The position numbers and the translations under genes are program-made. A stretch of 51,462 nt of DNA. Origin: Candidatus Eremiobacteraceae bacterium. GTDB taxonomy: Bacteria; Vulcanimicrobiota; Vulcanimicrobiia; Eremiobacterales; Eremiobacteraceae. The notes under the pieces are model-generated. The model saw only the letters and a list, made by a program, of their open reading frames with translations, was not told where the DNA came from and did no database searches. The stretch is taken from positions 1-51,462 of the forward strand of contig DATCBN010000041.1 in the NCBI GenBank assembly GCA_036511855.1. Direction: 5' to 3'. The number at the start of each line of letters is the position of its first letter. The stretch's first letter is position 1. Below are positions 13,229-50,426 of the stretch, in pieces.

Positions 13229-13244
13229 TCAATTATTTGTAGGG

Positions 13245-13289
13245 GCCGACTTTTATGGTCGGCTGTACTAGGGCAAGCATCGCTTGCCC
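13245..13289. repeat. Palindromic intergenic repeat between convergent transporter genes
   Basis: Two hairpins stand in the 83-bp gap. The first is GCCGAC-ttttatg-GTCGGC (13245-13263). The second is GGGCAAGC-ATC-GCTTGCCC (13271-13289), the core of the window's repeat family. They lie after the stop of the TSUP gene and the stop of the YeiH-like gene, where a bidirectional terminator or mRNA end-stabiliser would be useful. Confidence 0.85.
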
Positions 13290-16681: not shown

Positions 16682-16711
16682 GGGCTCCGTGGGGCCTGCG
16701 ATTCCGTACGA

Positions 16712-16755
16712 GGGTGAGCATCGCTCACCCAAAATGGCTAGCGATGCTTGCCCTA
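16712..16755. repeat. Palindromic repeat, one intact and one decayed unit
   Basis: GGGTGAGC-ATC-GCTCACCC (16712-16730) is an intact unit of the GTGAG subtype. It is followed by TGGCTAGC-GAT-GCTTGCCC, a unit of the GCAAG subtype whose left arm has mutated. Both lie 30-75 bp after the cytochrome gene and before the thiC leader, so they may end the respiratory transcript. Confidence 0.8.
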
Positions 16756-16802
16756 TTACAGTGTCAATCGAAGGCGCACGGACCGAAACCTTCGAACAAG
16801 AG

Positions 16803-18607
<1,805 letters not shown>

Positions 18608-18644: not shown

Positions 18645-18706
18645 GGCCGACCTTCATGGTCGGCCAGGAAGAACATAATGGGCAAGCGATGCTTGCCCTC
18701 CTACAA
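18645..18706. repeat. Palindromic repeats between thiC and the dioxygenase gene
   Basis: GGCCGACC-TTCAT-GGTCGGCC (18645-18665) and GGGCAAGC-GAT-GCTTGCCC (18680-18698) with the flanking CTCCTACA (18699-18706). This is the same two-hairpin pairing seen at 13245-13289, again between convergent genes. Confidence 0.85.
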
Positions 18707-24081: not shown

Positions 24082-24135
24082 GGGCAAGCGATGCTTGCCC
24101 TCCTACAATACGAACGGGGCAAGCGATGCTTGCCC
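24082..24135. repeat. Two tandem palindromic repeat units
   Basis: GGGCAAGC-GAT-GCTTGCCC occurs twice in direct orientation (24082-24100 and 24117-24135). The first copy is followed by TCCTACA and the second by TAATACA. They lie 12 bp after the repeat-protein stop, in a convergent intergenic region. Confidence 0.88.
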
Positions 24136-24143
24136 TAATACAA

Positions 24144-29992: not shown

Positions 29993-31375
29993 ATGCGTAC
30001 CATGATGGCATCTTCCCCATCCGGCGCGATCGCAAATGCGTCAACTATTGCGGTCGCCTGCTCGGGCGGATCGGATAGCGCGGCTGCTCTGCTTGAAACG
30101 CGCAAGCTCGCGCCGCACGCCGACGTCGTCGCGTGCTACGTGGATCACGGCGTGCGCCCACGCGCTTCCATCGATCGCGATATCGCAGCCGTTCGCGCTC
30201 AGGCGATGGCGGTTGGCGCCCGCACGCTGGTCGCGCACCTTCACTTGCGCGCTACGGGTGCCGGCACTTCCGAGGCGGCGTTGCGCAAAGCGCGTTATGC
30301 CGCACTTACCGTGATGGCGAAGCGCGTCCGTGCTTCGCTGATCGTCACGGGCCACCACGGCGGCGACGTCGCCGAATGGGTCCTCATCGCGATGATGCGG
30401 GGGAGCGGCGTCGACGGGCTAGCCGTGATGCCCGAAAGCAGGCAAGTCGCGCGCGGCATCACGCTGGTGCGGCCGCTCTTGCGCGAGTCGAAATCCGGCT
30501 TAGCGGACGCCGTGCGCAGGATGCGTCTGCCCGTCTCCGTCGACGAAACGAACGCGCAGCCGCGCTATGCGCGCAATCTCGTGCGGTCATTTCTTGCAGC
30601 GTGGTCCGCGCGTGGCGCTGCACCCGACAAAACGCTGGCGAGATCCGCGCTGCTGTTGGCCGAAGACCGCGCGGAGCTGGATACGCTCGCGCGGACGGAA
30701 CTCGACCGCGCCCGTTCTCGCAAAGTCCGCGCAGCGCTCAACACGCCCGTGCTTCGCGTGCTGACGCCCGCGCTGCTGCGTCGAGTCGTAAGGATGATCG
30801 TCCGCGATACGGCGGGCACGCCGTTGGATTTTTCGTTGGCTCACTGTGACGCGATCGTTCGTGCGATTCGTGAGGGCCGCGGCGGCGAGTTCCACGCCGG
30901 CAACGCGAAAGTGGTCTTGTCCGCCGGCTTGCTCCGGGTCGCCCCGCGAGTACCCTGTAGGAGGGCGAGCATCGCTCGCCCAAAAAAAAGGGTGAGCGCT
31001 GCTCACCCTCCTACAAACGACGACGAAATCGGCGCGATCCATTCAGTCCGCTTGCGCGCTGCGTCGCTGCCCGCGTCGCCGAACTTCACGGTGAGGCTGT
31101 CGGTTCCAGGCGACACATGCGTGCCGTCGGGTCGCCGGAATCCCGTGTCGCTCGCTCGCTTCCTCGCCAAGGAGGGCATTCCGCGCGATCTGCGCGCGTC
31201 GGTGCCGCTCCTGTGCATCGACGGCCGAATCGCCGCCGCGCTCGGCGTTCGGATCATGGAACCGTTCACGCCCATCTGCGGAGAAGCGACCGTCGACGTC
31301 ACATGGAAGTCCGCCGCTCTATCGGGACAAGGCGGACTGACCGATATCTTCAATATGAAGCACTCGCCGCCGTGA
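29993..31375 (+). CDS. tilS: tRNA(Ile)-lysidine synthase TilS, with an in-frame repeat insertion
   Basis: This 460-residue enzyme makes lysidine at C34 of the AUA-reading tRNA-Ile. The ATP-pyrophosphatase loop SGGSDS is at residues 24-29; YVDHGVRP, AALRKARYAAL and ETNAQPRYARNLVR follow. The C-terminal substrate-recognition domain (about 365-425: VRLSVPGDTCVPSGRRNPVS) is present. Residues 322-341 are encoded by a 60-bp palindromic repeat that lies exactly in frame (see that entry); it falls in the linker before the C-terminal domain. Starts MRTMMASSPSG, though nearby ATGs are possible. The stop overlaps the hpt start (GTGA). Confidence 0.93.
   Translation: MRTMMASSPSGAIANASTIAVACSGGSDSAAALLETRKLAPHADVVACYVDHGVRPRASIDRDIAAVRAQAMAVGARTLVAHLHLRATGAGTSEAALRKARYAALTVMAKRVRASLIVTGHHGGDVAEWVLIAMMRGSGVDGLAVMPESRQVARGITLVRPLLRESKSGLADAVRRMRLPVSVDETNAQPRYARNLVRSFLAAWSARGAAPDKTLARSALLLAEDRAELDTLARTELDRARSRKVRAALNTPVLRVLTPALLRRVVRMIVRDTAGTPLDFSLAHCDAIVRAIREGRGGEFHAGNAKVVLSAGLLRVAPRVPCRRASIARPKKRVSAAHPPTNDDEIGAIHSVRLRAASLPASPNFTVRLSVPGDTCVPSGRRNPVSLARFLAKEGIPRDLRASVPLLCIDGRIAAALGVRIMEPFTPICGEATVDVTWKSAALSGQGGLTDIFNMKHSPP
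30956..31015. repeat. Palindromic repeat unit inside the tilS coding sequence
   Basis: The 60-bp unit begins TGTAGGAGGG and ends CCCTCCTACA as mirror-image outer arms. Inside are GGGCGAGC-ATC-GCTCGCCC and GGGTGAGC-GCT-GCTCACCC separated by a run of eight A, i.e. two family hairpins head to head. It is exactly 20 codons long and in phase with tilS, adding residues from CRRAS to HPPT with no stop. The same arms occur in intergenic copies elsewhere. Confidence 0.9.
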
Positions 31376-37860: not shown

Positions 37861-37925
37861 GGGCAAGCATCCCGTACTAGGGTGAGCAACGCTCACCCAT
37901 TTGGGCAAGCGATGCTTGCCCTAAT
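37861..37925. repeat. Cluster of palindromic repeats after a glycosyltransferase gene
   Basis: A half unit GGGGCAAGCAT (from 37861) is followed by GGGTGAGC-AAC-GCTCACCC (37880-37898) and GGGCAAGC-GAT-GCTTGCCC (37903-37921), ending TAATA. Truncated and intact units are packed side by side, as if several insertions or duplications occurred here. Confidence 0.85.
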
Positions 37926-37978
37926 ACTTAACTGAGATATTCAAAGGTCGAGTCCGCGGGCTCTGCGAACGGGTCGCC

Positions 37979-47199: not shown

Positions 47200-47220
47200 C
47201 GGACGCCGACTTCTGTATTA

Positions 47221-47278
47221 GGGCAAGCATCGCTTCCCCAGAAAAAAAACTAGGGCAAGCGATGCTTGCCCTCCTACA
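47221..47278. repeat. Palindromic repeat pair between the 3D protein and rsmA
   Basis: GGGCAAGC-ATC-GCTTCCCC (47221-47239, right arm with one mismatch) is followed by a run of eight A and GGGCAAGC-GAT-GCTTGCCC (47253-47271) with CTCCTACA after it. The head-to-head pair around an A-tract matches the arrangement inside tilS, with outer arms differing. Confidence 0.85.
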
Positions 47279-50339: not shown

Positions 50340-50398
50340 CTCCGTTCGTCGTAAGAGGGCCGATATAATAGGGCCGACGTACTAGGGCCGATGTACTA

Positions 50399-50426
50399 GG
50401 GCAAGCATCGCTTGCCCATTTTTTTT
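50399..50426 (+). terminator. Palindromic repeat acting as an intrinsic terminator
   Basis: GGGCAAGC-ATC-GCTTGCCC (50399-50417) is followed by an A and eight T residues (50419-50426). This is a strong stem with a U-run, 60 bp after the SOS-regulated gene and just before the convergent AI-2E gene. Partial relatives (GGGCCGA...TACTA) precede it from 50357. A member of the repeat family appears to have been recruited as a terminator. Confidence 0.75.

Follow-up and report, generated by a model that had tools for sequence, protein, structure and literature searches.

An in-frame REPIN within the tilS gene of a soil bacterium of Candidatus Eremiobacterota

Introduction

How a 60-bp palindrome comes to lie inside the coding sequence of a conserved gene, and how the encoded protein bears it, is the question raised by the tilS locus of a soil bacterium of Candidatus Eremiobacterota (here G000, with congeners G001 and G002). 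The host genome is a draft of 3.07 Mb in 112 contigs, probably metagenome-derived like its named relatives, which are mostly metagenome-assembled Candidatus Eremiobacterota; the window analysed here is the whole of contig C41, 51,462 nucleotides. A first-pass annotation had placed a 60-bp palindromic unit within a single tilS open reading frame, and its coordinates proved exact (Table 1). The reading we favour, with a probability of about 0.88, is that this unit is a REPIN of a family amplified in G000, copied into tilS by a RAYT and tolerated in an interdomain loop. The work extends a REPIN-RAYT system with in-gene copies to an under-studied, mostly uncultured soil phylum.

Table 1. Position of tilS, its insert and the other repeat copies in the window.
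Feature	Position	Strand	Basis
tilS, tRNA(Ile)-lysidine synthetase, 460 aa, contains the REPIN insert	29993..31375	+	profile matches, Foldseek
REPIN insert, 60 bp, encodes CRRASIARPKKRVSAAHPPT (TilS residues 322-341)	30956..31015	+	sequence, fold, ORF, structure model
REP unit 1, GTAG head, GGGCGAGC..GCTCGCCC hairpin; sequence TGTAGGAGGGCGAGCATCGCTCGCCC	30956..30981	+	sequence, genome pattern search
A8 spacer AAAAAAAA separating both REP units	30982..30989	+	sequence; A/T-rich spacers recur in other G000 REPINs
REP unit 2, inverted, GTAG head outward; sequence GGGTGAGCGCTGCTCACCCTCCTACA	30990..31015	-	sequence, genome pattern search
Intergenic REP unit; second-family palindrome directly upstream at 13244-13263	13264..13289	+	sequence comparison, pattern search
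Degenerate REPIN, upstream of TPP riboswitch	16705..16761	+	sequence comparison, Rfam
REP unit	18680..18705	-	pattern search
Two tandem REP units	24082..24142	-	sequence comparison, pattern search
REPIN-like pair related to the tilS insert	37869..37927	+	sequence comparison
REPIN, two inverted REP units	47214..47278	+	sequence comparison, pattern search
REP unit	50392..50417	+	sequence comparison

Results

The host gene and the anatomy of the insert

By profile search, the tilS product scored 128.7 bits against TIGR02432 (cut-off 93.6), exceeded the cut-offs of PF01171 and PF11734, lay barely above that of TIGR02433 and fell below that of PF09179, the middle-domain model. The conserved PP-loop residues are kept in an alignment with relatives, and the top PDB matches of the structure model by Foldseek, 1ni5 and 3a2k, are both TilS. 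The gene gave a single match in the genome and is a conserved single-copy gene; tilS is essential in model bacteria.

The insert comprises two 26-bp GTAG-type REP units, inverted with respect to each other and flanking an A8 spacer. An unpaired GTAG-type head stands beside a short palindrome in the first unit and in its inverted partner, as in REPINs and GTAG-class REPs. Folded as single-stranded DNA, the 60-mer forms one long hairpin of -25 kcal/mol (z = -9.3), a value that none of 200 shuffles attained.

A REP family amplified in one genome and its RAYT genes

At least 251 exact copies of the REP unit are present in the 3.07-Mb genome, against 0 for a reversed-pattern control. Exact units of the same family number 6 in G001 and 15 in G002, and an exact pattern search of nine genomes of other genera returned 0. 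The outer arms of the insert recur in intergenic copies, as had been noted at first pass, both in the window and in the genome-wide search. In 1.73 Mb sampled for neighbour pairs and intragenic clusters (56% of G000), neighbouring units of this family formed 66 head-out pairs, 45 and 34 tandem pairs and 1 head-in pair. A bias towards head-out inverted pairs is the hallmark of REPINs (PMC3116915), and doublets with outward heads that fold as one hairpin are what we observe here. About 160 of the 167 REP clusters in the sample were not called intragenic by a codon-usage scan of limited sensitivity, so the family is mostly extragenic.

The genome carries two Y1_Tnp genes, corresponding to two RAYT loci, one intact (L001) and one frameshifted (L002). 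The intact gene, of about 153 aa, matches NF047646 (cut-off 80 bits), the NCBIfam model 'REP-associated tyrosine transposase', with a score of 96.1 bits, and has REPs of the tilS-insert family on both sides, some of them degenerate. The second (L002:1426-1889, G000 C4) is frameshifted near its end and apparently decaying, and the same REP family flanks it; a cognate RAYT bordered by the same repeat is thus present, as expected of a REPIN. Nine plus three units border the RAYT of G001; they belong to the family that is G001's own, GGCGGACCTTTATGGTCCGCC. Arrays of palindromes of a third, visibly distinct family, TGAAGGGGCCGAGTTTATCTCGGCCC and its relatives, surround the G002 gene (L063:1-800, G002 C26). 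With a different family flanking the RAYT of each of the three genomes, RAYT and REP are paired species by species, as is known for REPs.

Reading frame and site of the insert in the protein

The first-pass annotation had the insert in frame, stop-free and at a domain boundary, and the open reading frame and structure model bear this out. Stops interrupt two of the forward frames of the 60-mer, and tilS reads the sole open one. An AlphaFold2 model built with 17 relatives (mean pLDDT 80.9, pTM 0.60) predicts disorder at residues 321-349 (pLDDT < 50), between strands at 313-318 and 350-355, and the Pfam C-terminal domain occupies residues 366-425. From this low-confidence segment between strands and the position of the C-terminal domain, the insert is placed in a predicted disordered loop that joins the substrate-binding and C-terminal domains. 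Together with the copy number of the family, this loop supports the earlier proposal of a spreading repeat tolerated at a domain boundary, here a dispersed mobile palindrome in a conserved single-copy gene. The further statement that it 'adds 20 residues' stands in one sense, in that the insert codes for residues 322-341; a gain of 20 over an ancestor would rest on a clean empty tilS site, and none of the relatives offers one.

By our estimate, a random insertion would stay in frame and free of stops with a chance of about one in nine, length and phase each contributing a factor of 1/3. Fourteen strict REPINs of the genome measured 54-67 bp, and their lengths fell into the modulo 3 classes 0/1/2 as 5/7/2. 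Since multiples of three are not in excess, the element is not built to hold the frame; selection acting once it has inserted does so, and the in-frame copies that survive reflect this filter. The periods of the two tandem arrays that lie within genes, 42 and 36, are multiples of 3.

Two REP families in one tilS linker

It had been anticipated that relatives may lack the repeat. Genomes tested outside the genus do lack it, whereas in G001 and G002 this tilS linker is occupied by REPs of another palindrome family: three tandem units in G001 and two in G002, all in frame and read as ADHKGPP repeats. The presence or absence of the 20-residue block was sought in an alignment of tilS from relatives, as the first-pass annotation had proposed, and neither an empty site nor a nucleotide-level junction emerged, because the congeners carry the other family there and the linkers of other genera are longer and unalignable. 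Linker lengths in the genus, repeats included, are 54, 53 and 40 residues, and those in other genera of the family are 60-75 residues without matching palindromes, in a comparison that leaves out the relative G009. The proposed flanking target duplication is likewise not visible in tilS (GAGTACCC / insert / AACGACGA); transposition of the RAYT/IS200-like kind predicts none.

The repeats of G000 and of its congeners differ in family, number, orientation, arrangement and stem sequence. Measured against the conserved LRAA codons, the insert in G000 also ends about 33 nt (about 11 codons) further away than those of G001 and G002. These differences in family, number and arrangement, with the offset of the ends, lead us to infer separate insertions. 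Alternatively, a REP could have entered the linker once, in the ancestor of the genus, and been replaced or converted afterwards by the REP family now active in each lineage. This would account for a REP in this linker in all three congeners and for inserts that all end in CCTACA or CCCTACA with the conserved LRAA codons soon after, and elsewhere different REP families repeatedly adjoin each other. The offset of the ends, and the change from one family 1 REPIN to three or two tandem family 2 units with another number, orientation and stem, argue against such a shared event, and we consider it unlikely.

Separate insertions, as we prefer, would mean that sister lineages acquired REPs of two unrelated families in the same tilS linker; this is the most interesting part of the locus, if modestly so. 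The linker is a tolerant spot, marked by the second family in two sister species, and two families colonising it in parallel make site tolerance directly testable. The lengths are suggestive of a linker that lost ancestral sequence in this genus while gaining REP sequence. A tentative extension, which we hold to be somewhat less probable than its negation, is that the linker was rebuilt from mobile REPs, an ancestral connector of 60-75 aa having shrunk and two unrelated families having entered separately. If true, a selfish repeat supplies much of an interdomain connector, and one protein site is used recurrently, whatever the family.

Origin of the insert

In the reading that we favour, the REPIN most likely reached tilS as a single-stranded hairpin copied by a RAYT, a REP-associated Y1 HUH transposase; the RAYT is the probable mover, given the genes described above. 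The copy would have entered in its sole stop-free forward frame, and the interdomain loop would tolerate some 20 disordered, basic, Pro-containing residues. Survival is then explained by a length that is a multiple of three, by that single open frame and by the tolerant loop.

We take the insert to be passively tolerated rather than adaptive. An adaptive role, with the basic linker that the REP encodes, or its mRNA hairpin, adjusting either the activity of TilS or the expression of hpt-ftsH downstream, seems improbable to us, even more so than a shared ancestral insertion. In its favour, the encoded stretch is rich in Lys/Arg and the enzyme binds tRNA, all three species have kept REPs in tilS, and of the mere 8 exact family 2 copies in G002, 2 lie in tilS. 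Against this, the two lineages have wholly different sequences here, disorder is predicted for the segment, and the same repeat occurs in unrelated proteins, as tolerated insertions would. Repeats may be misassembled in a draft of this kind, but this is unlikely here in view of the in-frame flanks and the parallel cases described below. A chance palindrome or ordinary linker unrelated to any repeat family, which the hypervariability of the linker among relatives might suggest, can be dismissed, since both 26-mers match the 251-copy family exactly with an empty control and the fold is far outside that of shuffled sequence.

Other in-frame copies in the genome

Six of about 167 clusters (about 4%) in the sampled 56% of G000 are intragenic and in frame, and lie in tilS, uvrA, thpR, a membrane protein gene, a permease gene and dnaE. 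The scan is based on codon usage, and its thresholds were relaxed because strict ones overlooked tilS; as it also overlooked the tilS case of G001, the count is a lower bound. In uvrA (L210:9704-9730, G000 C77) a single in-frame REP gives a net gain of 6 residues and is absent from relatives 82-83% identical. In thpR an in-frame REP accounts for exactly 12 extra residues that relatives lack. About 47 extra residues built of 36-nt units, again absent from relatives, are found in the putative membrane protein (an ORF of 733 codons), and the permease-like ORF (L179:4410-4770, G000 C4) reads in frame through eight tandem REP units of 42-nt period, about 120 aa that are absent in congeners. The names of these last two are our reading of hydrophobic sequence, and NCBIfam gave no family for either ORF.

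Clean presence and absence was thus obtained for the in-frame REPs of uvrA, thpR, the permease and the membrane protein; target-site duplication is not resolvable in these genes, as the relatives are too divergent at the DNA level. The sites form a natural series, from empty through single unit and dimer to an eight-unit array, along which one may follow how selfish repeats become protein and which sites tolerate them. The dnaE copy (L207:18123-18142, G000 C93) is a palindrome of the second family, read as ADHKGRP, in a variable linker. The same linker holds another short repeat, MVGQDK/TVGQDK.

Comparison with known repeat systems

Like REPINs and GTAG-class REPs with their RAYTs (PMC3116915, PMC2817692, PMC3733652), the repeats described here are GTAG-headed imperfect palindromes of about 26 nt, with inverted doublets that form one hairpin, hundreds of mostly intergenic copies, a RAYT flanked by the same repeat and species-specific families. 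They differ from the known cases in the phylum of the host, Eremiobacterota, and in tandem same-orientation pairs being about as common as inverted ones. According to PMC3733652, open reading frames of numerous species contain GTAG and CGTC REPs and their dimers, over half of these inserts code for 20-30 residues, uvrA is one of the target genes, and two Xanthomonas species have unlike REPs at nearly the same place in recB. With in-frame REPs, uvrA and shared sites described there, the tilS case belongs to a described kind; tilS itself is absent from the targets named in the genome-distribution section of that paper. The tilS repeat is accordingly a real, correctly located and tolerated mobile palindrome, ordinary in kind.

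The likeness to Rickettsia palindromic elements drawn at first pass is one of function, in that both are palindromes tolerated in frame within protein genes, and not one of family. The intragenic repeats of R. conorii are, in the account that PMC3733652 gives of them, of the CGTC class (RPE-4, RPE-6) or the longer RPE-1, whereas the units here carry a GTAG head and have cognate RAYTs; on this tag we reject membership in the RPEs, within what that account covers. A literature search for REPs in Eremiobacterota gave no report among the matches listed, which is not proof that none exists, and the matches listed for tilS with a palindromic insertion were all unrelated papers on immunology.

The copies that accompany the insert elsewhere in the window are given in Table 1. 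The sole Rfam match in the window is a TPP riboswitch (RF00059, 64.8 bits) at 16799-16908, about 40 bp downstream of the degenerate REPIN.
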